This document shows, piece by piece, positions 35,291-49,891 of a DNA stretch of 64,000 nt (its first letter is position 1; every line of letters begins with the position of its first letter). The DNA lies in contig JAMLIH010000003.1 in assembly GCA_023954255.1 (NCBI GenBank), positions 16,104 through 80,103 of the forward strand, in the 5' to 3' direction. This DNA is from Phyllobacteriaceae bacterium. GTDB taxonomy: Bacteria > Pseudomonadota > Alphaproteobacteria > Rhizobiales > Rhizobiaceae. Below the pieces are notes generated by a model that saw only the letters and a program-made list of their open reading frames with translations, searched no databases and had not been told where the DNA came from. The translations under genes and the position numbers were made by a program.

Positions 35291-35339
35291 CCTGCCCGCG
35301 CAAGGCCCGGCGGTGATAGGGCACTTGTTCGGCACTGGC

Positions 35340-35777
35340 TCAGCTCGCCTTGCCGCTATCCTCTTCGCCCTTGCCGTCCAGCCCCAGCAGTTCCGCCGCG
35401 CGGGCAACCATGTTGATTTCGAACTCGTGGAATTCCTGGTCGGATAGCGAAATCGCCTTCATGTCTTCCAATATTTCCCGCCGCCTGGAAACCGGCAGCC
35501 TGCGAATGAGGCTCGTCAGCGGAAACAGCGAGGAATCCTCCTGGGCGATGCGAAGCACTTCCTGTTCGAAATGCATCAGTTCGTCCTCGCTGACATCGAG
35601 CGTGCGCGCCAGGAGATCGCGGAAATGCTGCAATTCCTGCGCCCTTATGCGCCCGTCGACAAGAATGACCCGATAATAGAGGACCGCGACTGCCGTGCGG
35701 GTATCCTCGCGCGTGAATTCGATGGACTCCGCCGGTCCTCCCAGCTTGTCCAGCAGATGCTTGACAGAAGCATACAA
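35340..35777 (-). CDS. TerB-family (tellurite resistance TerB-like) protein
   Basis: A 145-residue all-helical acidic protein of the TerB-like type: AVAVLYYRVILVDGRIRAQE, then LLARTLDVSEDELMHFEQEV and MKAISLSDQEFHEFEINMVA. I take the TTG at 35777 as start since aagggg lies seven bases upstream; the open frame extends further to 36011 but that part shows no conserved features and crosses a hairpin. TerB-like proteins bind metal ions through acidic residues; the role here is unknown. It stands alone. Confidence 0.75.
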   Translation of the reverse strand: MYASVKHLLDKLGGPAESIEFTREDTRTAVAVLYYRVILVDGRIRAQELQHFRDLLARTLDVSEDELMHFEQEVLRIAQEDSSLFPLTSLIRRLPVSRRREILEDMKAISLSDQEFHEFEINMVARAAELLGLDGKGEEDSGKAS

Positions 35778-36269
35778 GATTTCGCCCCTTGTTTTTGGTC
35801 GGAACCTACACGCAACCACAGATTTCAGCAAGAGAGGCACAGGCCCGGCTCGCCCGTCGGGACCGGAAACCGAAAAACCGACTATCGCCAGGCAAAAGCC
35901 GGGAAATAGTCGGTTTTGAGACGCTACAATGCCGGGTTCGCCGGCCAACTGTATTGCCCCGGTACGCAGTACCTGATCCGGGGGTCGCTCCGGTAAGTCC
36001 CGGAACCGCATTGAGTTTTAGGCGAATAGTGTAAACAGGCAGTTAGAATTGGGTTACGGCATGATTAACGGCGGTTTTTTTTGGCCCTGAAATCGAAAAA
36101 ACAAACCGCCGCAACCACGCGCACTTTCCCTTGCGCCTCTTCGGCCCGATTTTCGGCACTTCCCCACCTCATATTCAGCTATCCGGGCGGCAAAATCGCT
36201 TGACCGGCGGGCAAAGGAAAAATAAATATAAAGAAATCTTTATATCCTCATATCACTTGGATCTTCGCG
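35778..36269. other. 492-bp intergenic region with two long inverted repeats and an operator-like palindrome
   Basis: Three structures are visible. First, AAAACCGACTAT (35874-35885) and ATAGTCGGTTTT (35906-35917) form a perfect 12-bp stem with a 20-base loop. Second, GGCGGTTT (36070-36077) and AAACCGCC (36103-36110), extended by T- and A-runs, form a longer hairpin. Third, the 20-bp palindrome at 36226-36245 just before the homocysteine methyltransferase start. The GC-rich stretch 35930-36010 did not fold into a tRNA or a riboswitch I know. Confidence 0.5.
36226..36245. promoter_or_regulatory. 20-bp palindrome, candidate methionine/SAH-type operator (copy 1)
   Basis: ATATAAAGAAATCTTTATAT is a perfect dyad except for the two central bases. 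An identical copy stands at 46686-46705 in front of the pterin methyltransferase gene. Both target genes belong to methyl-THF-dependent methionine synthesis, which suggests one shared repressor. As I remember, ArsR-family SahR regulators recognise AT-rich palindromes of this general kind; this was not checked. The 3' edge is 24 bp from the start codon. Confidence 0.65.
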
Positions 36270-37286
36270 ATGGATTTGCTCTCCCGCCTGCTTGAAGAAA
36301 AAGGCGTCCTGCTTGCCGATGGCGCAACCGGCACCACCCTGTTCGAGATGGGTCTTTCCTCCGGCCATTCGCCGGAATTCTGGAATGATGAAAAGCCGGA
36401 GAACATCCGCAAGCTGCACCAGGATTTCGTCGATGCCGGCAGCGACATCATCCTGACCAACACCTTTGGCGGCAATCGCCACCGCCTCAAGCTGCACAAC
36501 GCCCAGGATCGGGTCTTCGAACTCAACGAGAAGGCCGCCAGGATCGCCCGCGAAGTCGCCGATGCCGCGGGACGCCCCGTCGTGGTCGCGGGCTCGGTAG
36601 GCCCGACCGGGGAATTGCTGGTTCCCCTTGGCGCTCTGACCAAGGAAGAGGCAAAACAGGCCTTCATCGAGCAGATGGAGGGGCTCAAGGCAGGCGGCGT
36701 CGACGTCATCTGGATCGAGACCATGTCCGCCGTCGACGAAATCGAGGCGGCCGCGGCAGCTGCGGTTGAAGTCGGTATGCCCTATGTCATCACCGCTTCC
36801 TTCGACACGGCAGGCAAGACCATGATGGGCCTCGCCCCCGCCAGCATGCCCGCGACACTGGCCGGCCAGGCCACTGCACCCGTTGCTGTCGGCGCCAATT
36901 GCGGCGTCGGTGCATCCGATCTGCTTTCCTCGGTTCTCGACATGACCGCTGCCGATCCTTCGGCGGTCGTCGTTGCCAAGGCAAATTGCGGCATTCCCGA
37001 AATCCGAGGCGACAAGGTCGTCTATACCGGCACACCGGAACTGATGGCCGACTATACAAGAATGGCCATGGATGCCGGAGCACGCATCATCGGCGGCTGT
37101 TGCGGCACCTCCTGCAACCATCTGCGCTACATGCGCAAGGCGCTTGATGAGCACCTGTCAGAGGACAAGGCACCACGCCCCACCGTCGAGGAAATCGTCG
37201 AGAAGATCGGCCCGATGAAGAACGCCACCTCTTCCGCCAATGACGAGGCTCCCCGCCGCGAACGGCGTGGCAGGCGTCGGGCGTGA
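36270..37286 (+). CDS. bmt: Homocysteine S-methyltransferase (betaine-homocysteine methyltransferase-like)
   Basis: A 338-residue (beta/alpha)8 barrel of the homocysteine S-methyltransferase family. It begins GVLLADGATGTTLFEMGL, and the zinc-thiolate cysteines are in GANCGVG (about residue 211) and GGCCGTS (about 276-277). It binds homocysteine on zinc and accepts a methyl group either from glycine betaine (as rhizobial Bmt) or, as the first module of MetH, from methyl-cobalamin. With B12-binding, pterin-binding and activator proteins encoded nearby, it may be the homocysteine module of a split MetH. A palindromic operator precedes it. The last 15 residues are Arg-rich (PRRERRGRRRA). Confidence 0.85.
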   Translation: MDLLSRLLEEKGVLLADGATGTTLFEMGLSSGHSPEFWNDEKPENIRKLHQDFVDAGSDIILTNTFGGNRHRLKLHNAQDRVFELNEKAARIAREVADAAGRPVVVAGSVGPTGELLVPLGALTKEEAKQAFIEQMEGLKAGGVDVIWIETMSAVDEIEAAAAAAVEVGMPYVITASFDTAGKTMMGLAPASMPATLAGQATAPVAVGANCGVGASDLLSSVLDMTAADPSAVVVAKANCGIPEIRGDKVVYTGTPELMADYTRMAMDAGARIIGGCCGTSCNHLRYMRKALDEHLSEDKAPRPTVEEIVEKIGPMKNATSSANDEAPRRERRGRRRA

Positions 37287-37293
37287 TCCGGCA

Positions 37294-38007
37294 TCAGCCG
37301 CCGAACGCCACCATGTGGAACTGCAGCTGCGCCTCCTCATAGCGCCACTTTCTGCCGACCGGGCATGCATCGCGTGCCGCGCAACCCAGCGTCATGCAGT
37401 CGGGCCGGTTTCCGGAGGCAAGGTGGCCCCGGCAGGCAGCAGTATTGAAACCCTCTTCCCCATAGGCGCCGACGGGGCACGCTGAAAGACACGGCCTGCC
37501 GTCGCACGTGTCGCAGGGATGCGCACCTGTCTGCACCTCCGGCACAACACCACCCACAGTGACCTCCGCCGGCAGGACGATTGCCGCCCGCAAGGCAAAC
37601 CACAAACCGTATTCGGGATGGATCAGCATGCCGAGCGGCGAGGACTGAAGTCCCATCGCCCGCTTTGCCCAGCGCTGAAACGGCCAGACCCGCTCGCCGA
37701 AGGGAAAGAGGCATTCGGCGGGCGGCTGCCCGGTTTGCGAAAGCGGCGCTACCGCCTCGCCGACTATCCGCCGTGTCCAGCGGTTCATGGGATCGGGCAT
37801 GCCGTCACGGGATTCGCCGGAAGCGGAAAAATGCTGCCACATGGCGCTGCCGGTATTGCCGAACAGCAGCGCCGGCCTTCCTTCCAGGTGATGGAAGGCC
37901 GGATCGGCGGTCTCGCCCGGTTCGATCGCAAAGCGGCCGAAACAGGCAAGACCATTGTCCTTCAGACAGATCATGATGCGGGAAAGGGCAGCGTCCGCTT
38001 CTGCCAT
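37294..38007 (-). CDS. 4Fe-4S ferredoxin-type protein of the corrinoid region
   Basis: A 237-residue soluble protein whose C-terminal third has two cysteine clusters, CDTCDGRPCLSACPVGAYG and a second set in DCMTLGCAARDACPVG, the latter with fewer regular spacings. The N-terminal part (CLKDNGLACFGRFAIEP) resembles the iron-sulfur reductase family that includes QueG, but the catalytic cobalamin-binding part is not evident. It lies tail-to-tail with the homocysteine methyltransferase gene, eight bases apart. Since corrinoid activation needs low-potential electrons, it could be a donor to the RamA-like protein; this is a guess from position. Confidence 0.65.
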   Translation of the reverse strand: MAEADAALSRIMICLKDNGLACFGRFAIEPGETADPAFHHLEGRPALLFGNTGSAMWQHFSASGESRDGMPDPMNRWTRRIVGEAVAPLSQTGQPPAECLFPFGERVWPFQRWAKRAMGLQSSPLGMLIHPEYGLWFALRAAIVLPAEVTVGGVVPEVQTGAHPCDTCDGRPCLSACPVGAYGEEGFNTAACRGHLASGNRPDCMTLGCAARDACPVGRKWRYEEAQLQFHMVAFGG

Positions 38008-38122
38008 GACACCCGGCCCGTCAGTCCTTGACGCCGGTCGGCTCCGAAAGGTGCCAGACGCTGCGGGTGATCTGGTTTCCCACACGCCGGCGGCTTAGCG
38101 CCTCGCCGGCCGGGTCTCCCTT

Positions 38123-39712
38123 TCAGCCGAAGGCATCGGGCATGGAGTCCTTGCGCCTGGTCATGAAATCCTTCAGCGCCTCGTCGATGCTCTCGTCAAG
38201 CACCGGCGGCTGATAGGCCTCGAGCCAGGCCCGGGCGATGTCGTTTGCCTTCTGCTCGGTGCGCTTCGCCCCCTCGATCTCCCATTGTTCGAACGAATTG
38301 TTGTCGGCAACGTTGGAAACGTGGAAGGCTTCCTTGAAGTTCGCCTGGGTATGGGCGCAACCGAGATAATGCCCGCCGGGGCCGACCTCGTGGATAGCAT
38401 CCATCGCCTGGGCGTTTTCCGAAATATCCACCCCGCCGGCAAATTTCTGTGCAGCGGCAAGCTGATCGCAATCCATAACGAATTTCTCGAAAGAGGAGAC
38501 CAGCCCGCCTTCGAGCCAGCCTGCAGCATGCAGCATGAAGTTGACCCCGCCCAGCATGGCCGGCCACAGCGTGTTGGCGCTTTCATAGGCGGCCTGCGCA
38601 TCGGGCAGTTTGGAACCCGTCAGCGAGCCGCCGGAGCGGAACGGAAGGTTGTAGCGACGGGCGAACTGTGCGGCCCCCATCAGCACCTGTGCCGGTTCCG
38701 GCGTGCCGAAGGACGGCGCGCCCGACTGCATCGAGATGGCGGTTGCGAACGTGCCGAAGATCACCGGCGAGCCGGGGCGGCACAACTGCGAGAATGCAAT
38801 TGCCGAGGTTGCCTCGCACAATACCTGGGTCAGCGTGCCGGTGACGGTAACCGGGCTCATCGCCCCGCCGACAATGAAGGGTGACACGATGGAGGCCTGG
38901 TTTGCCCTCGCATAGGTTTTCAGCGCGCCCAGCATGGTGTCGTCCAGAACCATCGGCGAATTGCAGTTGATCAGCGAAACCAGCACGCAGTTGTTGTCGA
39001 CGAACTCCTCGCCGAACAGCAACTGCGCCATTTTCACCGTATCTTCTGCGCGCTCCGGCGCGGTAACCGACCCCATGAAGGGTTTGTCAGAGTAGCGGAT
39101 GTGGGTATAGACCATGTCGAGGTGGCGCTTGTTGACCGCAATGTCCACCGGCTCGCACACCGTGCCGCCGGAATGGTGCATGGCGGGCGCCAGATAGGCG
39201 AGCTTCACGAAGTTCCGGAAATCCTCGATGGTCGCATAGCGCCGTGTCCCTTCAAGGTCGCGCACGAAGGGCGGGCCGTAAACCGGCGCGAACACGGTCG
39301 TGTCGCCGCCGATGACCACATTGCGGTCTGGATTGCGCGCATGCTGGGTAAACTGCGACGGCGCGGTCTTCATCAGTTCGCGGCACAGCCCCTTGGGAAA
39401 ATGCACCCGCTCGCCTTTGACGTCGGCGCCGGCATCCTTCCACATCGAAAGCGCTTCCGCATCGCCGCGATACTCGACGCCGATCTCTTCCATCAGAAGG
39501 TCGGCATTGTGTTCGATCAGTTCGATGGCCTCGCTGGAAAGGATGTCCACCGGCTCCAGCTTGCGGTGGATATAGGGCAGGCTCGTCAGGTGAACGCCCG
39601 AACGCGCTGCCCGCCTGGCAGCGCCGCCGCCGCCCCTCACCCGGCCCTGGCGGCCGGCATTTTCCTGAACTTCACCAGCACCTTCGCTCATGGCAATGCC
39701 CGATTCTTCCAT
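38123..39712 (-). CDS. MttB-family (trimethylamine methyltransferase-like) protein, non-pyrrolysine, second copy
   Basis: A 529-residue MttB-superfamily protein, clearly diverged from the copy at 12143. Family blocks include LINCNSPMVLDDTMLGALKT, SVTAPERAED and VGPGGHYLGCAHTQANFKEA. No in-frame amber codon exists, so it does not use pyrrolysine. The start at 39712 is preferred because AAGG lies nine bases upstream; 39691 is an alternative. The N-terminus has an Arg/Gly-rich segment (GRVRGGGGAARRAARSG). It would methylate a corrinoid protein from a quaternary amine; the corrinoid protein at 41421 is the obvious partner. The gene is on the opposite strand and separated by a YeeE pair. Confidence 0.82.
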   Translation of the reverse strand: MEESGIAMSEGAGEVQENAGRQGRVRGGGGAARRAARSGVHLTSLPYIHRKLEPVDILSSEAIELIEHNADLLMEEIGVEYRGDAEALSMWKDAGADVKGERVHFPKGLCRELMKTAPSQFTQHARNPDRNVVIGGDTTVFAPVYGPPFVRDLEGTRRYATIEDFRNFVKLAYLAPAMHHSGGTVCEPVDIAVNKRHLDMVYTHIRYSDKPFMGSVTAPERAEDTVKMAQLLFGEEFVDNNCVLVSLINCNSPMVLDDTMLGALKTYARANQASIVSPFIVGGAMSPVTVTGTLTQVLCEATSAIAFSQLCRPGSPVIFGTFATAISMQSGAPSFGTPEPAQVLMGAAQFARRYNLPFRSGGSLTGSKLPDAQAAYESANTLWPAMLGGVNFMLHAAGWLEGGLVSSFEKFVMDCDQLAAAQKFAGGVDISENAQAMDAIHEVGPGGHYLGCAHTQANFKEAFHVSNVADNNSFEQWEIEGAKRTEQKANDIARAWLEAYQPPVLDESIDEALKDFMTRRKDSMPDAFG

Positions 39713-39933
39713 TTGGTTTGACCTTGTTATCACGTGGAATAGCCGGCTGTCGCCTTCGCATCACGCGGCGCGGCGGGCGTTGCGGCCTTTGGCCTCAAAA
39801 TACCGGCTCGCCAAGGCACAAATGACGCCAAAAACGCCCTGCGTTGGCGCATTTGCGCTGCCGCCGGCACTGCCCACCAGCGCTGCTTACGCCCCGCCCG
39901 AAACCGGCTGGCGGTTTGATGCAGGTCAAATCG

Positions 39934-39973
39934 CATATATAAATGAATGCTAATATTAGCCATCTTTTATATG
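39934..39973. promoter_or_regulatory. Nested inverted repeat before yeeE-type genes, candidate ArsR-type operator
   Basis: A perfect 12-bp palindrome GCTAATATTAGC (39949-39960) is flanked by inverted arms CATATATAAATG (39934-39945) and CATCTTTTATATG (39961-39973). It is AT-rich in a GC-rich genome and ends immediately before the aaaggagg ribosome site. YeeE/YedE pairs of rhizobia are often under an ArsR-type sulfide/persulfide sensor (BigR/SqrR); no such gene is adjacent here. Confidence 0.55.
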
Positions 39974-39986
39974 AAAGGAGGTTGTC

Positions 39987-40544
39987 ATGTTAACCTGGAG
40001 AAACGGCGGGCTGGCCCTCGGTCTGGTCTTTCTGGCCGCCGTATTGCTGGTCAAGCCGATCGGGGTTTCGACCCAGTTCGTCATTTTCGACGGCATCTTG
40101 TGGGATGCCGTAAATCCGTCCGTCGTCGTTGAAAGCAGCGAGGCGAAAAGCGGCTATGCGAGCCCCAATGCCTATCTCAACAAGAGCGGCGGCAAATACG
40201 CCAAAAACGTCGCAAACCCCGTCAATTACAGCTTCGTCTTCGTGCTTGCCATGATCGGCGGTGCGCTGTTGTCGGGTGTTCTGCGCGGCGGTGTCGCCCG
40301 GGCCGAACGCGCCATGCCGCAAATCTGGCGGGCCAATTTCGGCGACAATCCCTGGAAGCGCTATGCAGCAGCCTTCGTGGCGGGATTCGTAGTGCTTTAT
40401 GGCGCCCGCCTGGCCGGCGGCTGCACCTCCGGTCACATGATGAGCGGCATGATGCAGACGGCCGTTTCCGGCTATATCTTCGCTGCCGGTGCCTTCCTCG
40501 CCGGCATTCCGACGGCAATCTATCTTTACGGCAAGGAGGCCTGA
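39987..40544 (+). CDS. YeeE/YedE-family (DUF395) sulfur transport membrane protein, first half-protein
   Basis: A 185-residue membrane protein with four or five helices. The family motif GARLAGGCTSGHMMSGM includes the conserved cysteine thought to guide thiosulfate or other sulfur species through the channel. An exceptionally strong Shine-Dalgarno (aaaggagg) precedes it. The second half-protein starts three bases after the stop. Long YeeE proteins combine both halves in one chain; here they are separate genes, as in PmpA/PmpB. Confidence 0.85.
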   Translation: MLTWRNGGLALGLVFLAAVLLVKPIGVSTQFVIFDGILWDAVNPSVVVESSEAKSGYASPNAYLNKSGGKYAKNVANPVNYSFVFVLAMIGGALLSGVLRGGVARAERAMPQIWRANFGDNPWKRYAAAFVAGFVVLYGARLAGGCTSGHMMSGMMQTAVSGYIFAAGAFLAGIPTAIYLYGKEA

Positions 40545-40547
40545 GCC

Positions 40548-41150
40548 ATGACCACCATCATGCTTGCAATCGTAATCGGCGCGGCTTTCGGCTTCGTGCT
40601 CGACCGTGTCGGCGCCACCAATCCCGACTACATCATCGGCATGTTGCGGCTTTCCAGGCTGCATCTGATGAAAACCATCCTGCTGGCCATCGGCGTATCC
40701 TCCATACTGATGTTCGGCGGCCTGTCGCTGGGGCTGATTGATCCCGGTCATCTCGATGTGAAGACCGCCTATGCCGGTGTCTTTGTCGGCGGCATTCTGC
40801 TCGGCATCGGCTTTGCCGTCGCCGGCTACTGCCCCGGCACCGGCCTTGCCGCCATGGCAACCGGGCGCAAGGATGCCCTGTTCTTCATTCTCGGCGGCCT
40901 TCTGGGAGCCGGCGCCTATATGGGCACCTATGGCGGCGTCAAGGCTACCGGCATGCTGGATGACATTCTGGGCGGCAAAACGACATTGGGCCAGGTTGCG
41001 GGGACCGACTACCCCGCACTGTTCGCCGTCAACGGCACACTGATCGGCATTGTCATGGGTATTGTCCTTGTCGCCATCGCCTTCGCCCTGCCCTCAAGGC
41101 TGCGCGGCGAAGGCAGCAAGGCAGCAAGCCGCGGCGCCAGGCACGCCTAG
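40548..41150 (+). CDS. YeeE/YedE-family (DUF395) sulfur transport membrane protein, second half-protein
   Basis: A 200-residue partner of the preceding gene, with helices and the second conserved cysteine motif GFAVAGYCPGTGLAAMATGR. The two proteins probably form one channel. The gene ends just before a strong terminator (41174-41205), so the pair is its own transcription unit inside the corrinoid region and need not be part of that pathway. Confidence 0.85.
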   Translation: MTTIMLAIVIGAAFGFVLDRVGATNPDYIIGMLRLSRLHLMKTILLAIGVSSILMFGGLSLGLIDPGHLDVKTAYAGVFVGGILLGIGFAVAGYCPGTGLAAMATGRKDALFFILGGLLGAGAYMGTYGGVKATGMLDDILGGKTTLGQVAGTDYPALFAVNGTLIGIVMGIVLVAIAFALPSRLRGEGSKAASRGARHA

Positions 41151-41173
41151 GCAAGCGGTATTCGGAACCATCG

Positions 41174-41205
41174 AAAAAGGCGGGTTCTTCGGACCCGCCT
41201 TTTTT
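41174..41205 (+). terminator. Rho-independent terminator after the yeeE-type pair
   Basis: Stem GGCGGGT (41179-41185) and ACCCGCC (41193-41199) with a seven-base loop, followed by TTTTTT. It separates the sulfur-transport pair from the corrinoid protein gene downstream, which must have its own promoter in 41206-41420. Confidence 0.88.
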
Positions 41206-41420
41206 CTTGCCGGAAATTCCCGCCCTCGGGAACAGACGATTCCGGCTTTTGCGGCAAGGCCTTGCAGTCGCAAAAATTGAGTTTCTGGTCGCGAAACAAA
41301 CAGGTGCGCTGCGCCGATTTCCTGCTATAGGGGAAATTCGCGCCGCAGGAAGGCAGACCGCTTTCCGACGCCCAACGACAATATTGCCCATGCGCGCCGA
41401 TCGAGCGAAGGATTCCGCCA

Positions 41421-42113
41421 ATGTCCGATGACGAAATCATCCTCTCCGAACTCAACGACGAGGAACTCGTGCAGCAGATGCACGACGACCTTTACGACGG
41501 ACTGAGGGAGGAGATCGAGGAAGGCGTCAACATCCTGCTGGAGCGCGGCTGGACCCCCTACGACGTGCTGACCAAGGCGCTGGTCGAGGGTATGCGCATC
41601 GTCGGCATCGACTTCCGCGATGGTATCCTGTTCGTGCCGGAAGTGCTGCTCGCAGCCAACGCCATGAAGGCCGGCATGTCCATTCTGCGCCCGCTTCTTG
41701 CCGAAACCGGCGCACCGAAACTCGGCTCCATGGTCATCGGCACCGTCAAGGGCGATATTCACGACATCGGCAAGAACCTCGTCGGCATGATGATGGAAGG
41801 CGCCGGCTTCGACGTGTTCGATCTCGGCATCAACACCGATGCCGATGAATATCTTGCAGCGCTTGAGGAACACCAGCCCGACATTCTCGGCATGTCGGCC
41901 CTACTGACCACCACCATGCCTTACATGAAGGTCGTCATAGACACGATGGTCGCCAAGGGCATTCGCGATGATTACACCATCCTTGTCGGCGGCGCGCCGC
42001 TCAACGAGGAATTCGGCAAGGCAATCGGCGCCGACGCCTATTGCCGCGACGCCGCTGTTGCCGTTGAAACCGCCAAGGAATTCATGGCTCGCAAGCACAA
42101 CCAGCGGGCCTGA
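41421..42113 (+). CDS. Corrinoid (B12-binding) methyl carrier protein
   Basis: A 230-residue free-standing MetH-type B12 module. Residues 1-95 form the helical cap domain (EEGVNILLERGWTPYDVLTK, FVPEVLLAANAMKAG) and the remainder is the Rossmann-like cobalamin domain with the D-x-H-x-x-G motif in GDIHDIGKNLV (Asp112, His114, Gly117); the histidine replaces dimethylbenzimidazole. It can carry a methyl group between methyl-THF, homocysteine methyltransferase or an MttB protein. It is the only corrinoid protein in the window. The start follows gaagga. Confidence 0.92.
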   Translation: MSDDEIILSELNDEELVQQMHDDLYDGLREEIEEGVNILLERGWTPYDVLTKALVEGMRIVGIDFRDGILFVPEVLLAANAMKAGMSILRPLLAETGAPKLGSMVIGTVKGDIHDIGKNLVGMMMEGAGFDVFDLGINTDADEYLAALEEHQPDILGMSALLTTTMPYMKVVIDTMVAKGIRDDYTILVGGAPLNEEFGKAIGADAYCRDAAVAVETAKEFMARKHNQRA

Positions 42114-42187
42114 CACGGCAACGCGTGCAACCTGCTCTTGCGGGTGGCAAATCGCGGGCGGCGTTGTCTTGAACGGGGACTGCAGCG

Positions 42188-42853
42188 ATGGACAAGCCAA
42201 CCGGCAATACGCAATACCTCGCCGCATCGTTTGCCGGCTGCCTTGCCGCCCTCGGCCTGCTGCTGGCTGCAACCGCCGTATCGCTCGTTTCGGGCAGCGG
42301 TCAGGAGCCGTTCGAAACCGTTTCGAATCCCGTTGCCTATGCCGACGGACTGACACAGGCTGAAGACGGCCTGCGGGCGATCCTGTTCATCGACAGCCTC
42401 TTCATCATCGCCTATCTGACCGCCATCTGCTTCGCCATCGCAGCCTTTGAACGGAAATGCCCGCCAGCAGCATGGTTCGGCGGCCTGGGCATGATCGCCG
42501 TTGCCATCCTCGACGCACTGGAAAATGCCACGCTTGCCCAGTCCCTCGACATTACGGTGCTTGGCGCGCCGCTCACCCTCCAGCACATCACCTGGCAGGC
42601 ATCGGTCTCCGCCATGAAGTGGCAGGTGGCTGCCCTTTCGCTGTTCGCAATCACCTTCACCCTGCCCTGCAACACCCTGGTTGAACGCATACTGGTATGG
42701 GGCATGCGCCTGGGTCTGCCGCTTGCCGTGCCGCTGTTCATCATGGATGCCTTCGGCCTTCGCGAGGTTGCGCCGCTCGGCCTCGGCCTTGCCATGCTGG
42801 GCGGCTTCGCCTTGCTCGCAGTCGTCGCTCGATCACATAGCGCAAAGAACTAA
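42188..42853 (+). CDS. Hypothetical six-helix membrane protein in the corrinoid cluster
   Basis: A 221-residue integral membrane protein with about six hydrophobic segments. I do not recognise the family. It starts 75 bp after the corrinoid gene and is followed by the DUF1638 gene on the same strand, so it may be in the operon. A transport or anchoring role is possible but nothing in the sequence shows it. Confidence 0.6.
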   Translation: MDKPTGNTQYLAASFAGCLAALGLLLAATAVSLVSGSGQEPFETVSNPVAYADGLTQAEDGLRAILFIDSLFIIAYLTAICFAIAAFERKCPPAAWFGGLGMIAVAILDALENATLAQSLDITVLGAPLTLQHITWQASVSAMKWQVAALSLFAITFTLPCNTLVERILVWGMRLGLPLAVPLFIMDAFGLREVAPLGLGLAMLGGFALLAVVARSHSAKN

Positions 42854-42931
42854 GTCGTTATTTTTCAGGATCTTGTCTGCAGGGCATGAATCGGGCTGAC
42901 AAGCTGTTGAATCAAGCTGTAAACTGAACCG

Positions 42932-43543
42932 ATGACTGCATCGACACCCTCATCTCCTGCCAGAATTCGCGTCATCGCCTGCGGCATGATTGCCCGCGAA
43001 GTCCTGGCGGTAAACGAGCAGCTGGGTTTCGATCACATCGATCTGGCCTGCCTTCCGGCCGAATACCATCATTATCCCGAGAAGATTGCACCCGCCATGG
43101 ACAAGGCGATCGAGACTGCTCGCGCCGAGGGGTTCGAGCATGTCTTCGTCGGCTATGCCGATTGCGGGACGGGCGGCGAACTCGACAAGGTCTGCAAAAA
43201 GCACGGCGTCGAGCGCATCGCGGGCCCGCACTGCTTTTCCTTCTATGCCGGTAACGCTGCCTTTGCCGCCGAGGCGGGGAACTGATGACGACGTTTTTCA
43301 TTACCGTTCCTTGCCCGCCAGTTCGAGGCTTTCATGGTCAAACCGCTGGGCCTCGACCGCCATCCCGATCTGAAGGAAATGTACTTCGCCAACTACACCG
43401 CTGCGCTTTACCTCGCCCAGACCGAAGACCCGGAACTGGAAAGAAGGGCGCGGGAGATTGCCGCCTATCTTGGGCTTGAATACAAATACCGTTATACCGG
43501 CTATGGCGATCTTGCGCCTGCCCTCGCCTCCCTCAAGCCCTGA
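42932..43543 (+). pseudogene. DUF1638 protein, interrupted by two nearby frameshifts
   Basis: The N-terminal part (VIACGMIAREVLAVNEQLG, FVGYADCGTGGELDKVCKKH, RIAGPHCFSFYAGN) and C-terminal part (FLARQFEAFMVKPLGLDRHP) are both DUF1638 and in the same frame, but a TGA TGA pair at 43283 separates them. Between 43285 and 43305 another frame reads MTTFFIT, which fits the family exactly. So one base seems missing near 43283 and a compensating indel lies at 43306. DUF1638 proteins often accompany MttB and corrinoid genes and have conserved cysteines and histidines suggesting metal binding; biochemical function is unknown to me. Confidence 0.75.
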
Positions 43544-43559
43544 CCTCCCAAAAGACATC

Positions 43560-44015
43560 ATGAACTACCGCTACTACTACGAAGACTGCCCGCCGGGCTC
43601 GGAAATGACGCTTGCTCCGCGCACCGTTACGGCCGAGGAAATCGTCGGTTTTGCCTCCCGATTCGATCCCGTTCCCTTTCATCTCGACGAGGAAGCCGGG
43701 AGGGCTTCCCTGCTCGGCGGGCTTGCCGCATCCGGCTGGCATGTCTGCGCGCTCGCCATGAAGATGATCTGCGATTCCTACCTGCTGGATTCGGCCAGCC
43801 TGGGTTCTCCCGGCATCAGGGAATGCAAATGGCTGGCACCGGTGCTGGCAGGCGACACGCTGCACGGCAAGGTCGTCGTCGAGGGGGCAAGGGTATCGGC
43901 TTCCCGTCCGGGTCTGGGTCTGCTGGAACTTCGCTGCGAACTTTTCAACCAGCAGGACAAGCCTGTATTGATGTTCCGCAACACCGGCATGATGGCCACA
44001 CGGGGGACGGCGTGA
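43560..44015 (+). CDS. MaoC-like (hot-dog fold) dehydratase, first of a tandem pair
   Basis: A 151-residue MaoC-fold protein. The hydratase-type motif is in ASRFDPVPFHLDEEAGRASL, with Asp and His of the (R)-specific hydratase site, followed by GLAASGWHVCALAMKMI. The stop overlaps the GTG of the next MaoC gene. It is 17 bp after DUF1638. Such proteins usually hydrate enoyl-CoAs, which has no obvious link to corrinoid methyl transfer. Confidence 0.82.
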   Translation: MNYRYYYEDCPPGSEMTLAPRTVTAEEIVGFASRFDPVPFHLDEEAGRASLLGGLAASGWHVCALAMKMICDSYLLDSASLGSPGIRECKWLAPVLAGDTLHGKVVVEGARVSASRPGLGLLELRCELFNQQDKPVLMFRNTGMMATRGTA

Positions 44016-44503
44016 ACGATACCGCAACGACCGGCATGCCGGAATTCATGGTGCCCGGCTGGTCCGGCAGAATTGGCGAGCACACCTTTACGGCAGAGGA
44101 AATCATCGCCTTTGCCCGCGACTACGACCCCCAGCCCTTTCATGTCGACGCCGAAGCCGCAAAATCCAGCCTGTTCGGTGCCTTGTGCGCTTCCGGCTGG
44201 CATACCGCCTCGGTGTGGATGCGCAAGCAACGCGATTACACGCTCGGCTATCTGGCAGAACGCAGGAAAAACGGCCTGCCGGTGGCCGAATTCGGCCCTT
44301 CGCCGGGCTTTGAGAACCTGAAATGGCTGAAACCCGTCTATGCCGGGGACACGATCACCTATTTCAACCGGACCACCACCTGCCGCGAAAGCAGGAGCAG
44401 GCCCGGCTGGCATGTCCTCTCGGCGGCGAGCAGCGGCGAAAACCAGCACGGTGAGAAGGTGTTGACATTCGAAAGCGCTGTTCTGCTGAAATTCCCCGCC
44501 TGA
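44012..44503 (+). CDS. MaoC-like (hot-dog fold) dehydratase, second of a tandem pair
   Basis: A 163-residue paralogue of the preceding protein with FARDYDPQPFHVDAEAAKSS and GALCASGWHTASVWMR, so the D-x5-H hydratase pattern is also conserved here. It starts with GTG at 44012, overlapping the previous stop (GTGA), showing translational coupling. The pair probably forms a heterodimer in which each gives half of a double hot-dog. Substrate is unknown. Confidence 0.8.
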   Translation: MNDTATTGMPEFMVPGWSGRIGEHTFTAEEIIAFARDYDPQPFHVDAEAAKSSLFGALCASGWHTASVWMRKQRDYTLGYLAERRKNGLPVAEFGPSPGFENLKWLKPVYAGDTITYFNRTTTCRESRSRPGWHVLSAASSGENQHGEKVLTFESAVLLKFPA

Positions 44504-44620
44504 TCGGTTATGTTTCCCGATGAATCCGCCGTGTCGCGATTGTTTGTTTGCGCGTCGTAACGTGCATAGCCTGGCTGGCGCTTTCAAAGCATGACAGGCA
44601 CTCAGAAAAAGGTGGCTCGA

Positions 44621-44923
44621 ATGGCTCAACTGCAGATCGTCTACTGGCGTGACATTCCGGCCCAGGTCATCGTCAAGGCCGACCGGCGCAATGTCGCAAA
44701 ACGCGAACTGCCGCTGCGCTTTACCGAGGCGATCGACATGTGCGCCATGCGCTCGGGCGCTTCGGAAACCGATGACTACCTTGCCGAATGGCGGCGGGCA
44801 GACCCGGTTGAAGTAGGCGACGACATCGAGGCGGAAGCGGCAAAGGCTGCCGAAAGGCTCGAAGCGGAATACGACAAGGCGCGCCTGACTGCCCTCGTCA
44901 AAGCCGGCGGCAGAGAAGCGTAG
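44621..44923 (+). CDS. Small conserved protein, PF13769-like (so-called virulence factor family)
   Basis: A 100-residue protein beginning MAQLQIVYWRDIPAQVIVKA, with a basic/acidic body and the stretch RFTEAIDMCAMRSGASETDD. The Pfam name virulence factor is historical; in alphaproteobacteria it commonly sits next to MetF and RamA-type genes, as I remember it. A Shine-Dalgarno aaggtgg precedes the ATG at 44621. It is likely a small accessory of the corrinoid/C1 pathway. Confidence 0.7.
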   Translation: MAQLQIVYWRDIPAQVIVKADRRNVAKRELPLRFTEAIDMCAMRSGASETDDYLAEWRRADPVEVGDDIEAEAAKAAERLEAEYDKARLTALVKAGGREA

Positions 44924-44980
44924 AGCCGGCAGGCACTGCCCGCCGGGAAATTGAAACATCCACCTGTCTCGGGAATTGCC

Positions 44981-45577
44981 ATGAGCAGCACGCCCACGGA
45001 AGAAAACGCTCAGAAGGTCACGCAGGCAACCATTGTGCGGGCCAAGGCATCGAAGACCGCCTTCAAGCCGGCCGACGTCAGCCCGAGCAGGCGCCAGCGT
45101 TCCTATTCGATCCGGCTCTGGTCGGTGCGCAATGCCCGCTTTCTCGAATGGTTCTACAAGCGTTTCGCCAACATGTTCCTGATGCTGCACCCGTTCTGGA
45201 ACTGGGTCGGCTACAGCCGCGTCGAGCGCCCGGTGACCTTTGTCGAGCGCAATGTGAAGGGCCTGCTCTTCGACTGCCGTATGTGCGGCCAGTGCGTTCT
45301 TTCCTCGACCGGAATGTCCTGTCCGATGAACTGCCCCAAACAGTTGCGCAACGGCCCCTGCGGCGGCGTGCGTGCCAACGGCAATTGCGAGGTCGAGCCG
45401 AACATGCCCTGCGTCTGGGTACAGGCCTGGGCAGGCTCTCAGCGCATGCATGACAACGATGCGATAATGAATGTCCAGAAACCGGTCGATCAGAGCCTGC
45501 GCGAAACCTCATCCTGGCTGCGCGTCACGGCACAGGCGGCCGCAGATCGCGGAGTGAGCATGGAGAAATCGGCATGA
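44981..45577 (+). CDS. metV: MetV-like protein (methylene-THF reductase C-terminal, Cys-rich domain)
   Basis: A 198-residue protein with the zinc/iron-sulfur type cysteine array LFDCRMCGQCVLSSTGMSCP continuing as MNCPKQLRNGPCGGVR (around residues 98-130). This is the domain known as MetV, which pairs with MetF in acetogens and other bacteria as an electron-transfer subunit. The stop overlaps the metF start by four bases (ATGA). It would let methylene-THF reductase use donors other than NADH, or run the reaction in reverse. Confidence 0.82.
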   Translation: MSSTPTEENAQKVTQATIVRAKASKTAFKPADVSPSRRQRSYSIRLWSVRNARFLEWFYKRFANMFLMLHPFWNWVGYSRVERPVTFVERNVKGLLFDCRMCGQCVLSSTGMSCPMNCPKQLRNGPCGGVRANGNCEVEPNMPCVWVQAWAGSQRMHDNDAIMNVQKPVDQSLRETSSWLRVTAQAAADRGVSMEKSA

Positions 45578-46650
45578 ACATCGATCGTTTTCTCAATGAG
45601 GTCGAGCGCCCGCTTGCCCCGCTGCCCGGTCATTCTTCGCGCGGCCGGCTGGAGCGCGTGCTGCGCCGCGGCGAATTCGCCGTCACCACGGAACTGAACC
45701 CGCCGGATTCTGCCAATCCCGACGATGTCTACGACCGCGCCGCGATTTTCGAGGGTTGGGTCGATGGCATCAACGCGGTCGATGCATCTGGCGCCAACTG
45801 CCACATGTCATCGGTTGGCATTTGCGCTCTGTTGACCCGCATGGGCTACGCGCCAATCCTGCAGATTGCCTGCCGCGACAAGAACCGCATCGCCATTCAG
45901 GGCGACATTCTGGGTGCTGCGGCCATGGGCGTGGCCAACATCTTGTGCCTCACCGGCGATGGCGTGCAGGCAGGCGACCAGCCCGGCGCCAAGCCGGTTT
46001 TCGACCTTGATTGCATGAGCCTGCTCAACACCGCGCGCACCATGCGCGACGACGGCAAGTTCCTGTCGGGGCGCAAATTGACCACCTCGCCGGAAGTCTT
46101 TCTGGGTGCTGCAATCAACCCCTTCGCCCCACCTTACGATTTCCGCCCGCTGAGGCTGAAAAAGAAGATCGAGGCAGGTGCCCAGTTCGTCCAGAGCCAG
46201 TATTGCTTCGACGTTCCGATGTTTGCCGAATACATGAAACGCGTCCGTGACATGGGTCTCAACGAGCAATGCTTCATCCTTTGCGGCGTCGGCCCGCTGG
46301 CCTCTGCCAAGACCGCCCGCTGGATTCGCTCCAACGTGCCCGGCATTCACATTCCCGACGCCATCATCGAACGGCTGGAAGGCGCAGAAGACCAGAAAAA
46401 GGAAGGCAAGCAGATCTGCATCGACATCATAAATGAGGTCAAGGAGATCGAGGGCGTCAGCGGCATTCACGTCATGGCCTACCGCCAGGAGGAATATGTC
46501 GCCGAAATCGTCGCCGAATCAGGCGTGCTCAAGGGCCGCAAACCCTGGCACCGAGAACTGGCACCCGATGCCGAACGCCTCATCGACCGCCATGAATCAG
46601 TCGATGAACCGCTGTCCCCGCAACAAATCGTCGATGAAGTGGTCAATTGA
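45574..46650 (+). CDS. metF: Methylenetetrahydrofolate reductase MetF
   Basis: A 358-residue FAD TIM-barrel enzyme that interconverts 5,10-methylene-THF and 5-methyl-THF. FAD and folate contacts are suggested by NILCLTGDGVQAGDQPGA and QFVQSQYCFDVPMFAEYMKR. It is coupled to MetV and stands 36 bp before the operator of the pterin methyltransferase gene. It feeds methyl-THF to the proposed split methionine synthase, or takes methyl-THF generated from amines into C1 oxidation. Confidence 0.9.
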   Translation: MNIDRFLNEVERPLAPLPGHSSRGRLERVLRRGEFAVTTELNPPDSANPDDVYDRAAIFEGWVDGINAVDASGANCHMSSVGICALLTRMGYAPILQIACRDKNRIAIQGDILGAAAMGVANILCLTGDGVQAGDQPGAKPVFDLDCMSLLNTARTMRDDGKFLSGRKLTTSPEVFLGAAINPFAPPYDFRPLRLKKKIEAGAQFVQSQYCFDVPMFAEYMKRVRDMGLNEQCFILCGVGPLASAKTARWIRSNVPGIHIPDAIIERLEGAEDQKKEGKQICIDIINEVKEIEGVSGIHVMAYRQEEYVAEIVAESGVLKGRKPWHRELAPDAERLIDRHESVDEPLSPQQIVDEVVN

Positions 46651-46685
46651 CCGGCTTCAACGGCCTTGAATTCACTCGATCAGAG

Positions 46686-46705
46686 ATATAAAGAAATCTT
46701 TATAT
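46686..46705. promoter_or_regulatory. 20-bp palindrome, candidate methionine/SAH-type operator (copy 2)
   Basis: ATATAAAGAAATCTTTATAT, identical base for base to the site at 36226-36245. It lies between metF and the pterin methyltransferase gene, 15 bp from the ATG, with the ribosome site taggag in between, so it probably marks a separate regulated promoter within the cluster. Confidence 0.65.
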
Positions 46706-46720
46706 CGTAGGAGCAACCCA

Positions 46721-47806
46721 ATGACCCATACCCTCGTCGCCTCCGAGAGCAAGGAAGTCGTCATCGGCTTCGATCAGCCCTTTTGCGTGATCGGCGAACG
46801 TATCAACCCGACCGGGCGCAAGGTCCTCAACGAGGAACTGGAGCGTGGCGATTTTTCCCGTGTCGAGGCAGATGCCTTCGCACAGGTCGAAGCAGGCGCG
46901 ACCGTGCTCGACATCAACTCCGGCGCGGTGTTCTCCGGCAAGATGGCGGAAGATCCGCGCTATGCCGACAACAACTTCGTCGAGCCCACGCTGATGGCGC
47001 AGCTGGTCGAGGTGGTCCAGAACGTCACCAACACCCCGCTATGCATCGACTCTTCCGTTCCCGGCGCGCTTGAAGCCGGCCTGAAGGCCGCCAAGGGCCG
47101 CCCGCTGCTCAACTCGGTAACCGGCGAGGAAGAACGGCTCGAAAAGGTGCTGCCGCTGGTCAAGAAATACGATGTGCCGGTCGTCGCCATTTCGAACGAC
47201 GACACCGGCATTTCCGAAGATCCGGACGTCCGCTTTGCCGTCGCCAAAAAGATCGTCGAGCGTGCCGCCGATTTCGGCATCAAGGCTCATGACATCGTGG
47301 TCGATCCGCTGGTAATGCCGGTCGGCGCCATGGCAACCGCCGGCCAGCAGGTCTTCACCCTAGTACGCCGCCTGCGCGAGGAGCTGGGCGTCAACACCAC
47401 CTGCGGCGCGTCGAACATTTCCTTCGGCCTGCCCAACCGCCACGGCATCAACAACGCCTTCCTGCCCATGGCCTATGCCGCCGGCATGACCAGCGCCATC
47501 ATGAACCCCGTCGCCCTGCCCGTGGGACCGAAGAAAATTGCCGAGAAAAAAGCCGAGGTCGAAGCCGCCGGCATCATGCTGCCGCCGGACATGGACGATG
47601 AGACCTTCGTCAAGCTCTTCGGCCTCGGCTCGACCAGGTCGCGCCCCGGCAAGGAGATGGAGGCGATCCGCGCCGCCAACTTCCTGCTCAATCAGGATTC
47701 GGGCGGCGCTGCCTGGATTTCATTCAATCGCGACCCCGATGCCGCCGCAGGTGGACGGGGCGGACGCCGGGCCGGCGGCCGGGCCTCACGAAGGGGAGCG
47801 GCATAG
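46721..47806 (+). CDS. Methyltetrahydrofolate (pterin-binding) methyltransferase, MetH/AcsE-type module
   Basis: A 361-residue pterin-binding TIM barrel. Diagnostic motifs are CVIGERINPTGRK near the start, ATVLDINSGA, LCIDSSVPGALEAGLKAAKG and TCGASNISFGLPNRHGINNA, which form the methyl-THF site of MetH and AcsE/MtrH-type enzymes. It moves the methyl between THF and a corrinoid protein, most likely the one at 41421. An operator identical to that of the homocysteine methyltransferase gene precedes it. The C-terminal 20 residues are Arg/Gly-rich. The next gene, the activator, starts 24 bp later. Confidence 0.88.
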   Translation: MTHTLVASESKEVVIGFDQPFCVIGERINPTGRKVLNEELERGDFSRVEADAFAQVEAGATVLDINSGAVFSGKMAEDPRYADNNFVEPTLMAQLVEVVQNVTNTPLCIDSSVPGALEAGLKAAKGRPLLNSVTGEEERLEKVLPLVKKYDVPVVAISNDDTGISEDPDVRFAVAKKIVERAADFGIKAHDIVVDPLVMPVGAMATAGQQVFTLVRRLREELGVNTTCGASNISFGLPNRHGINNAFLPMAYAAGMTSAIMNPVALPVGPKKIAEKKAEVEAAGIMLPPDMDDETFVKLFGLGSTRSRPGKEMEAIRAANFLLNQDSGGAAWISFNRDPDAAAGGRGGRRAGGRASRRGAA

Positions 47807-47830
47807 GGCAACGCCCTGCCTTTCGGCAGA

Positions 47831-49873
47831 ATGGACAAACGCAACGACAGCTCCGATCCCCTCGTTCTCTTTATGCCCTCGGGCAAGCGCGGGCGCTTTC
47901 CAAAAGGCACCGCAATTCTCGATGCGGCTAGGGAACTGGGCGTGTACGTGGAATCGGTGTGCGGCGGGCGCGGCATCTGCGGCCGCTGCCAGTGCGAAAT
48001 CCAGACCGGACAATTCGCCAAGCATGGCATCACCTCGGCCGCCGAAAACATCTCCCCTCCCGGCCCCAAGGAAATCCGCTACGCTGAAAAACGCGAACTG
48101 AAGGAAGGCCGCCGCCTTTCCTGCTCGGCCTATGTCGAGGGCGATCTCGTCGTCGACATCCCGCAGGACCTTCAGATCAACGCACAAATCGTGCGCAAGG
48201 CAGACGACGGGCGCCACATCGACCGCAATCCGGCAATCCAGCTTTGCTACGTCGAGGTCGAGGAACCCGACATGCACAAGCCGCTGGGCGACCTGGACCG
48301 TCTCAAGGCAGCCTTGGAAAAGGACTGGGGCTGGAACGACCTGATGGTCGATTCGCATCTTCTGCCCAACATCCAGAAAATCCTCCGCGACGGGGAATGG
48401 AAGGTTACCGCCGCCATTCACCGCGACATGAATTCCTCCCGCCCCTCCCTGATCGCGCTTTATCCCGGCCTTCACAACGAAGCCTACGGCATCGCCTGCG
48501 ACATCGGCTCGACGACCATCGCGCTGCATCTGGTGTCGCTGCTTTCAGGCTCCACCATCGCTTCGACCGGCACGCCCAACCCGCAGATCCGTTTCGGCGA
48601 AGACCTGATGAGCCGGGTTTCCTATGTGATGATGAACCCGGATGGCCGCGAAGGCATGACCACCGCGGTGCGCAACGCAATCAACGGCATGATCGAAAAC
48701 GCCTGCACAGAGGCGGGGATAAACCCCACCGACATTCTCGATCTGGTCTTCGTCGGCAACCCGATCATGCACCACCTGTTTCTCGGCATCGACCCGACGG
48801 AACTGGGCGGCGCGCCGTTCGCGCTTGCGGTTTCCGGCGCGGTGCATTCCTGGGCAAGCGACCTGGACGTGCATGTCAACAAGGGCGCGCGCGTCTACAT
48901 GCTGCCCTGCATTGCCGGCCATGTCGGTGCCGATGCCGCCGCCGTCACCCTTTGCGAGGGTCCCCACCGGCAGAAAAAGCAGATGCTGGTGGTCGATGTC
49001 GGCACCAATGCCGAGATCGTGCTGGGCAACAAGGATCACATCGTCGCCGCTTCCTCGCCCACCGGCCCCGCCTTCGAGGGAGCCGAAATCTCCTGCGGCC
49101 AGCGGGCCGCGCCGGGCGCCATCGAGCGCGTGCGCATCGATCCCGAAACCCTTGAGCCGCGCGTGCGCGTCATCGGCTGCGACAAGTGGTCGGATGAGGA
49201 AGGGTTTGCCGAAGGCACTGCCAAGACGGGGGTAACCGGCGTTTGCGGCTCGGCCATCATCGAGGTGATCGCCGAAATGTACCTGACCGGCATCATCTCC
49301 GAAGACGGTGTCGTCGACGGCGCCCTTGCAGCAAAATCCGACCGCATTGTCGCCGATGGCCGCACCTTTTCCTACACGCTGTGGCGCGGCGAGCCGGAAC
49401 TGACCATCAAGCAAACCGATGTGCGCGCCATCCAGCTTGCCAAGGCAGCACTCTATGCCGGTATCCGCCTGCTGATGGACAAGAAGGGCATCGACCACGT
49501 CGACTCGATCAGCTTTGCCGGCGCCTTCGGCACCTTCATCGATCCGAAATACGCCATGGTGCTGGGCCTCATCCCCGATTGCGACCTCGACAACGTCAAG
49601 GCAGTTGGCAATGCAGCCGGTTATGGTGCCAAGATGGCGCTGTTGAACCGCACCTACCGCCGGGAGATCGAGGAAACCGTGCGCCGCATCGAAAAGATCG
49701 AAACCGCGCTTGAGCCCGATTTCCAGCAGCATTTCGTCAACGCCATGGCGATGCCCAACAAGGTCGACCCGTTCCCCAAACTGGCGAAGGCAGTCAAACT
49801 GCCGGAGCGCAAGGCACTCGACCCGTCAGGCGCAGACGCCGGCGGTCGCAGAAGACGGCGTAACCGCGGCTGA
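47831..49873 (+). CDS. RamA-like corrinoid-activation protein: 2Fe-2S ferredoxin plus ASKHA ATPase domain
   Basis: A 680-residue protein. Residues 10-110 are a 2Fe-2S ferredoxin domain (CGGRGICGRC with Cys44, Cys50, Cys53 and a further cysteine in RLSCSAYV). From about residue 218 comes the ASKHA-fold DUF4445 domain (GIACDIGSTTIALHL, VVDVGTNAEIVLGN, ATP site GAFGTFIDPK). These reactivate the inactive Co(II) form of corrinoid proteins to Co(I) with ATP. It substitutes for the AdoMet-dependent reactivation domain of full MetH. The C-terminus GGRRRRRNRG is Arg-rich. Electron donor is unknown. Confidence 0.9.
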   Translation: MDKRNDSSDPLVLFMPSGKRGRFPKGTAILDAARELGVYVESVCGGRGICGRCQCEIQTGQFAKHGITSAAENISPPGPKEIRYAEKRELKEGRRLSCSAYVEGDLVVDIPQDLQINAQIVRKADDGRHIDRNPAIQLCYVEVEEPDMHKPLGDLDRLKAALEKDWGWNDLMVDSHLLPNIQKILRDGEWKVTAAIHRDMNSSRPSLIALYPGLHNEAYGIACDIGSTTIALHLVSLLSGSTIASTGTPNPQIRFGEDLMSRVSYVMMNPDGREGMTTAVRNAINGMIENACTEAGINPTDILDLVFVGNPIMHHLFLGIDPTELGGAPFALAVSGAVHSWASDLDVHVNKGARVYMLPCIAGHVGADAAAVTLCEGPHRQKKQMLVVDVGTNAEIVLGNKDHIVAASSPTGPAFEGAEISCGQRAAPGAIERVRIDPETLEPRVRVIGCDKWSDEEGFAEGTAKTGVTGVCGSAIIEVIAEMYLTGIISEDGVVDGALAAKSDRIVADGRTFSYTLWRGEPELTIKQTDVRAIQLAKAALYAGIRLLMDKKGIDHVDSISFAGAFGTFIDPKYAMVLGLIPDCDLDNVKAVGNAAGYGAKMALLNRTYRREIEETVRRIEKIETALEPDFQQHFVNAMAMPNKVDPFPKLAKAVKLPERKALDPSGADAGGRRRRRNRG

Positions 49874-49891
49874 ACGGTCGCCAGATGGCTT

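Follow-up and report, generated by a model that had tools for sequence, protein, structure and literature searches.

How does a bacterium make methionine when its genome holds neither the activation domain of MetH nor a full-length MetE? The question is raised by a locus in a 64,000-nucleotide stretch of contig JAMLIH010000003.1, referred to here as the window, from a Phyllobacteriaceae bacterium whose 3.34-Mb draft genome comprises 139 contigs and is 91.8% complete. Within one 14-kb part of the window lie the separate modules of a split methionine synthase (mtgE, mtgC and mtgD), a metV–metF pair, an mttB gene and a gene for an iron–sulfur (Fe–S) protein; the closest relative of the corrinoid protein MtgC among the matches listed belongs, at 92% identity, to a metagenome-derived genome that bears the label Salaquimonas. 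Taken as a whole, the locus very probably encodes a modular corrinoid methyl-transfer system. The observations that carry this reading are the genes and their motifs, the lack of a MetH activation domain in the assembly, a conserved neighbourhood and the co-occurrence of the genes in related genomes. An earlier note, made from the sequence, had interpreted the locus as a split methionine synthase with a RamA-like activator. The modules, the activator, the lack of the activation domain (PF02965) and of a full-length MetE, and the published precedent in Phaeobacter to which the note had pointed (PMC5764234) all favour that interpretation, which is nevertheless incomplete, since such modules also take part in betaine demethylation. 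A split synthase would explain how methionine can be made where MetH and a full-length MetE are both missing from the genome, and would tie its synthesis to the breakdown of a common osmolyte.

Modules, activator and putative methyl donor

The module and activator genes and the metV–metF pair named in the earlier note were recovered at their positions with the expected domains in Pfam and NCBIfam searches. The acceptor module is an mtgE/bmt-like homocysteine S-methyltransferase (36270–37286, forward strand; PF02574, 228.8 bits) that exceeds the cut-off of the NCBIfam model PRK07534 (526.8 versus 338 bits) and has a MetH (1q7m) as its best sequence match in the Protein Data Bank (PDB). Its NCG and GGCCGT motifs, which supply the zinc-binding cysteines in modules of this kind, are both intact. 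MtgC (41421–42113, forward strand) consists of a cap and a B12-binding domain (PF02607 and PF02310) and is the sole cap-plus-B12 module found by a PF02607 profile search of the genome; its intact DIHDIG motif at 112 fits the cobalamin motif DxHxxG. MtgD (46721–47806, forward strand; PF00809), one of two pterin-binding proteins in the genome, is a predicted methyl-tetrahydrofolate (methyl-THF):corrinoid methyltransferase of a long type (PRK07535, 394.1 bits; cut-off 259).

Between mtgC and mtgD are a metV-like gene (44951–45577, forward strand; DUF5981, PF12225), encoding a partner of methylenetetrahydrofolate reductase (MTHFR), and a metF2-like gene for the reductase itself (45574–46650, forward strand; PF02219), the two frames sharing 4 bases. 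The genome contains two MetF-family proteins, and the copy on contig C47 scores higher against PF02219 than that of the window. Conserved beside metV, a small PF13769 protein (44591–44923, forward strand), whose domain bears the name 'Virulence factor', uninformative as to its role in this setting, is perhaps another MTHFR partner.

The activator (47831–49873, forward strand) combines an N-terminal 2Fe–2S domain (PF00111) with a RACo linker (PF17650), a middle domain (PF17651) and a C-terminal ASKHA domain (PF14574), and its CGGRGICGRC motif, presumably the 2Fe–2S site, is intact. The earlier description of this protein as RamA-like holds in so far as it is a 2Fe–2S/ASKHA reductive activator; because it has the 2Fe–2S and RACo domains and scores below the curated cut-offs for both RamA (TIGR04270, 118.6 versus 500) and AcsV (380.4 versus 800), its sequence marks it as RACo/AcsV-like and not RamA proper.

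Three genes were passed over in the earlier note: the DUF1638 gene (42932–43543, forward strand; PF07796 on its first piece), the MttB-family gene (38123–39733, reverse strand) and the Fe–S gene (37294–38085, reverse strand), to which a separate section is devoted. Four cysteines of DUF1638 are invariant in the 45 homologues that were aligned out of 95 found. A known fold for DUF1638 was sought and rejected: an intact relative was modelled confidently (pLDDT 94.2) and gave no PDB match at E ≤ 0.001, the best being 1.8e-3.

The MttB-superfamily protein is MtgB-like and a putative methyl donor module (PF06253, 755 bits), encoded together with mtgC and mtgD. Its best PDB sequence matches are 4yyc, followed by 2qne and 9yce (named glycine betaine methyltransferase), and judged by these relatives it most likely acts on glycine betaine or on a methylated amine like it. 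The presence of an MttB-type gene and of DUF1638 ties the locus to the published dual methionine/betaine system. Pyrrolysine in MttB was considered and rejected, as the frame at 38123 is open with no in-frame TAG and the matches to the Rfam family PYLIS_3 fall inside mttB genes. One of these (12535–12633, reverse strand) exceeds the gathering score, its alignment at 12633 having UUG where the model has UAG; another, in a scan of 35900–50000, is below the gathering score and again lies within the mttB gene. The PYLIS_3 match is a coding likeness and not a sign of pyrrolysine.

The genome holds three MttB-family genes. The second (12146–13729, reverse strand) has 25% identity to the gene at 38123 and is adjoined by two FAD/GcvT fusions of the dimethylglycine/sarcosine dehydrogenase kind (14578–17085 and 17155–19626); a third such fusion is found at 57036–59636.

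Published systems suggest how the parts may work together. In Phaeobacter inhibens, a three-part methionine synthase has been described for which three modules, the activator and DUF1638 are genetically needed for methionine (Price 2018; PMC5764234), and in Ruegeria pomeroyi MtgC and MtgD are reported to take part in betaine demethylation as well as in methionine synthesis (Mausz 2025; PMC12478193). If what the Phaeobacter genetics showed for modules, activator and DUF1638 is carried over by analogy, together with the double function of MtgC and MtgD in Ruegeria, MtgC would be the hub that carries cobalamin, MtgD would shift the methyl group between methyl-THF and MtgC, and MtgE would pass it from MtgC to homocysteine to give methionine. 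The MttB-family protein most likely supplies MtgC with methyl groups from glycine betaine or another methylated amine of that kind; MtgD would then take such a methyl group off MtgC, and the methyl-THF formed would be oxidized via MetV–MetF2. The activator and DUF1638 would bring oxidized Co(II) back to Co(I), and the Fe–S protein would probably bind cobalamin and either load or clean the MtgC cofactor or deliver low-potential electrons.

Methionine synthesis and betaine breakdown

The lack of a full-length MetH or S-adenosylmethionine (SAM)-activation domain, pointed out earlier for the window, extends to the genome-wide search, in which PF02965 had no match; the control was positive in seven of the 14 genomes searched. 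The search of the genome for metH and metE that the earlier note had called for gave, with PF01717, one short MesD-like protein (a 371-residue frame) and no protein of the full-length MetE type. With no PF02965, a single PF02607 module in the window and this one short PF01717 protein, a hidden second MetH or MetE was rejected. Nor is the absence of PF02965 merely a matter of missing contigs, because a genome of the same genus (G129), which is in one contig and 100% complete, is also without it. G129 carries the cluster (locus L090) apart from metV–metF, in the position of which there is a single MTHFR-like protein of 289 residues (L090 13548–14417; 29.2 bits, cut-off 24).

Among 151 genomes of the family, PF02965 was found in 89 and MtgC in 111; 55 genomes hold both, 34 PF02965 only, 56 MtgC only and six, of 1.1–2.0 Mb, neither. 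MtgC is present in 56 of the 62 genomes without PF02965 (Fisher's test for PF02965 versus MtgC, 7e-5, ignoring kinship). These searches and that for the Fe–S gene were made with fixed E limits (0.001 for PF02965, 1e-60 for MtgC and 1e-15 for the Fe–S gene), at which absences can be misses.

The neighbourhood of MtgC relatives was surveyed in the best 80 of 587 confirmed loci, which lean to near relatives of the window; many end at contig ends, and the counts of presence are lower bounds. DUF1638 is found in at least 76 of these loci, mttB in at least 71 (in 70 cases facing the other way from mtgC), the Fe–S gene in at least 66, PF13769 and mtgD in at least 65 each, the activator in at least 62, mtgE in at least 55 and metV and metF in at least 54 each. 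The order in Rhizobiales loci is mtgE, then the Fe–S gene and mttB on the opposite strand, then mtgC, DUF1638, PF13769, in some cases metV–metF, mtgD and the activator. The scattering over both strands with inserted genes, which the earlier note held to be unusual, does not stand out in this comparison: a two-strand layout with mttB is ordinary and common in Rhizobiales. As for the inserted genes, the transport pair was seen in none of the 80 loci, the hypothetical gene in one and the first MaoC gene in two, and all of them are present in the same-genus locus L090. The same set of genes is found in a Sinorhizobium meliloti record (CP090106.1), where bmt and a gene for glycine betaine/proline transport lie close by. 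This 3.72-Mb record is labelled pSymB, a label that may be wrong, as its size presumably fits the chromosome better. A plasmid of Paracoccus aminovorans has the activator, mtgD, metF, metV, DUF1638, mtgC, mttB and the Fe–S gene in one run; the gene table of this stretch, which is incomplete, lists neither mtgE nor PF13769.

Within this conserved setting, mtgD of the window stands apart. In a tree of MtgD sequences, from which the short rows L008 (92% over 229 residues) and L055 were left out, the 361-residue window protein groups with L109 (same genus), L012 and L100 (support 100/100, stem 0.92), and the other 79 rows are separate from this rare long type, including L090, in which mtgD occupies the equal position in the cluster. 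Most cluster genes of L090 are 80–96% identical to those of the window, compared with 60% for mtgD. The Fe–S gene (62%) and the hypothetical gene (69%) are also low, so that fast change may have caused the divergence; the tree makes it likelier that the window mtgD was exchanged in place. Such an exchange would mean that the modules of a split enzyme can be replaced one at a time.

Contig C33 matches the window at 34809–37054 with 99.955% identity over 2246 bases and then continues into a differing 3' end of mtgE, which may be an assembly branch or a strain mixture. A second homocysteine methyltransferase on C33 was rejected as an assembly branch of the same window gene. In the window at 33650–35290, a region encoding an ABC transporter ATPase contains several overlapping open frames, as if broken.

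Several points weigh against a working modular system that supplies methionine. Its activity in this organism is something that we infer, and in a genome that is 91.8% complete absences alone are no proof. The DUF1638 frame of the window is broken near 43285 and regained soon after, through a sequencing or assembly error or because the gene is damaged; the same-genus complete genome has an intact DUF1638 of 204 residues (L090). MtgC scores below the cut-offs of the curated glycine-betaine models NF047996 (197.3 versus 370) and NF047995 (176.9 versus 310). An Rfam scan of the window at gathering level gave a tRNA and PYLIS_3 only, with no SAM or cobalamin riboswitch, and none was found in 35900–50000 at E ≤ 1 either, so that control by methionine gains no support from riboswitches. 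Fifty-five of the 89 genomes with PF02965 keep MtgC too, and methionine synthesis is therefore unlikely to be its sole role; these genomes are consistent with MtgC being used in catabolism as well, as has been published (PMC12478193). Purified Phaeobacter Bmt, the counterpart of MtgE, is reported to have made methionine from betaine or dimethylsulfoniopropionate (DMSP) in vitro without cobalamin (PMC12366255). Lastly, the MesD-like protein (L007 1465–2550, reverse strand, on contig C78) scores well above the cut-off of PRK09121 (513 versus 392 bits).

This last protein allows the cluster to be seen as purely catabolic, demethylating betaine or similar amines while methionine is made by a MesD-like synthase on contig C78. 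Its alignment with 3rpd (413 bits) keeps HICYG, SLE and CTNCG, presumably the metal site, and the retention of MtgC in the 55 genomes with PF02965, together with MttB and dimethylglycine/sarcosine-dehydrogenase-like genes in the same window, would suit such an arrangement. However, MesD, of which 3rpd is named as a structure, required its partner MesX in published tests (Price 2021; PMC7857596), and MesX was found in none of three genomes of the genus by a search that was positive in one of the 22 genomes searched (G059, another family member). An intact MesD/MesX alternative was therefore rejected, and the MesD-like protein in this genus is an orphan for which no MesX was found. A Mes-like protein also exists in Phaeobacter, where its deletion is reported to have left lag-phase shortening intact (PMC12366255), an observation on lag phase and not on auxotrophy. 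As the cluster moreover retains its acceptor module mtgE, we consider a solely catabolic role very improbable. It is likewise unlikely that MtgE works alone as a betaine– or DMSP–homocysteine methyltransferase, without MtgC or cobalamin. The NCBIfam name of its matching model (betaine–homocysteine S-methyltransferase) and the activity of purified Phaeobacter Bmt with both donors would agree with this, yet MetH homocysteine domains (best 159 bits) outrank BHMT (70 bits) among the PDB sequence matches of MtgE, and proteins of its type are described as being without the betaine-binding residues of human Bhmt (Mausz 2025; PMC12478193). Moreover, Phaeobacter mutated in either its pterin or its B12 module is dependent on methionine too (PMC5764234), and the in vitro test of Bmt employed 200 µM enzyme with 200 µM donor (PMC12366255). 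The two roles of MtgE, MtgC-dependent and standalone, need not exclude each other.

The iron–sulfur protein encoded beside mttB

The split scheme itself has already been published; the Fe–S protein is the piece of the cluster for which no description was found. Literature searches surfaced no paper on it, as judged from titles and the starts of abstracts and with most subscription journals outside their reach. Its gene, with a start likely near 38007, lies 37 bases downstream of mttB and encodes about 240 residues, of which eight cysteines are invariant in 42 homologues. The alignment draws on 41 of 66 homologues, those dropped having broken frames or long N-terminal extensions or simply not having been picked; short frames of 30–105 residues occur in L049, L051, L066, L073 and L074.

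No Pfam family matches the window copy above its cut-off. A structure model built from the 42 sequences has a mean pLDDT of 85.8 and a pTM of 0.83; the Fe–S half is less certain, with blocks of pLDDT 55–88 after residue 160. A Foldseek search of the PDB with this model returned 28 chains at E ≤ 1e-3, 20 of MMACHC/CblC and eight of QueG, and the dehalogenase PceA came next after QueG at about 0.01. The TM-scores of the 28 matches are 0.46–0.59 (by query length) and the r.m.s. deviations 4.7–10.7 Å; because the TM-scores are around 0.5 and the deviations high, the likeness to MMACHC and QueG is one of fold and not of close kinship. The MMACHC family PF16690 matches 29 of the 42 members, at best with 18.1 bits and thus under its cut-off of 27, and the matching stretch includes HPEYGLWFALRAAIVLP. 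The QueG model TIGR00276 matches 22 of the 42 homologues (best 1.6e-5), with no match to the window copy up to E 1.

The distribution of the gene follows that of MtgC. In all 66 of the surveyed loci that have it, it is on the mttB strand; it is downstream of mttB in 65 and within about 200 bases in 54. Across the family, with at most 19 candidates scored per genome, it was found in 94 of the 151 genomes, all of which belong to the 111 with MtgC, and in none of the 40 without. Seventeen MtgC genomes have no match; 18 loci fetched from them all contain an mttB match (one weak, at 39%), and since mttB is retained there the Fe–S protein is not strictly needed. A replacement gene beside mttB was looked for by eye in 23 loci, 19 of them with open frames, and no common candidate emerged. 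The match contains one stop codon in four of the 94 genomes (G018, G060, G082 and G117), which may reflect decay, an error or recoding. In G031 some 541 kb of a single contig separate the gene from MtgC.

A distant relative (29.7% identity, profile probability 99.1) is encoded on a plasmid of Methylibium petroleiphilum (L114 5878–6498), where it sits behind a cobalamin run of cbiB, cobyric acid synthase, cobT and cobS, with a phosphatase gene and a gene of the 2'-5' RNA ligase family in between. Its annotated frame is without the second cysteine set, and no mtg gene is present in the stretch shown around it.

The fold, co-occurrence and neighbours of the Fe–S protein point to a cobalamin task. 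Guided by the structure model, we regard the protein as probably a partner of MtgC that loads B12 or reduces it, or else a low-potential electron donor; that its task is to load, clean or reduce the cofactor is what we infer. A wider proposal, to which we give somewhat less than even weight, is that the gene defines a bacterial class of compact cobalamin-handling Fe–S proteins, with an MMACHC/QueG-type fold and two 4Fe–4S clusters, that serve corrinoid methyltransferases in aerobes. In the present system such a protein would load or reduce the MtgC cofactor and would offer bacteria living in air, beside the ATP-driven activator, a second way to keep Co(I).

Another possibility, though one that we find doubtful, is that the protein acts merely as a ferredoxin, supplying the activator with electrons and binding no cobalamin. 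The Sinorhizobium record names the protein a ferredoxin; its two cysteine sets ending in CP resemble 4Fe–4S motifs; the NCBIfam matches of the window copy are weak and of ferredoxin type (NapG, E 0.046), not QueG; other members have weak Fer4 matches; and the 2Fe–2S domain of the activator needs a donor. The nearest solved folds, however, are MMACHC and QueG and not ferredoxins, with the reservation already made for the Fe–S half of the model, and the MMACHC-matching stretch, the homologues that match QueG and the Methylibium relative behind cobalamin-synthesis genes, in a displayed stretch that contains no mtg gene, also speak for cobalamin. Even as a donor it would not be the sole one, given the 17 MtgC genomes without a match. 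The co-occurrence with MtgC could also stem from the inheritance of neighbouring genes as one block, without any link in function, since the genes adjoin in most genomes and the 151 genomes are kin, with counts uncorrected for kinship; the 17 MtgC genomes without a match, the four matches with a stop codon and the lack of a common replacement gene would be in keeping with this. Against it, MtgC is present in every one of the 94 genomes with the Fe–S gene, the 40 genomes without MtgC have no match, the gene was kept in G031 in spite of its distance from MtgC, and an association with cobalamin genes is seen again in a betaproteobacterium, Methylibium. Shared descent without a functional tie is thus an unlikely account, and a cobalamin-related partner of MtgC remains our preferred one. 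If the protein does bind cobalamin, it could answer how aerobic corrinoid methyltransferases obtain their cofactor and keep it reduced.

Comparison with known systems

The locus resembles the Phaeobacter split synthase in its three separate module genes, the type of its activator, DUF1638 and the lack of PF02965. The Phaeobacter genes for the acceptor, the B12 protein and DUF1638 have close locus tags (PGA1_c13340–c13370), with the pterin gene (c16040) and the activator gene (c15200) elsewhere (PMC5764234), whereas the window has all of them in one 14-kb stretch together with mttB, metV–metF and the Fe–S gene. With the Ruegeria MtgBCDE system it shares MtgC, MtgD, MtgE, an MttB-family protein, metF2, the activator and DUF1638, and differs in its mtgD, which is of the separate long type among the loci compared. 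The main text of Mausz 2025 contains no occurrence of iron-sulfur, ferredoxin or 4Fe-4S, and a co-located form of the Mtg system is described there in Sinorhizobium meliloti (PMC12478193). In comparison with MesD/MesX (Price 2021; PMC7857596), the genome has one MesD-like protein, encoded outside the cluster, and no MesX turned up in the three genomes of the genus that were searched. The activator has the 2Fe–2S, RACo linker, middle and ASKHA domains in common with RACo/AcsV and RamA and falls below both curated cut-offs.

For the Fe–S protein, the closest PDB folds are those of MMACHC/CblC (best E 8.6e-7), with which it also shares a sequence stretch; the MMACHC matches have TM-scores of 0.46–0.59 (by query length) and r.m.s. 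deviations of 4.7–9.4 Å. It differs from MMACHC in its eight conserved cysteines and in a PF16690 score below the cut-off. QueG and the reductive dehalogenases, whose fold places cobalamin beside 4Fe–4S clusters, come next (5t8y, E 9.5e-5, followed by PceA). Compared with QueG chains of 367–384 residues, the Fe–S protein is compact at about 240, and its gene stands beside those of corrinoid methyltransferases.

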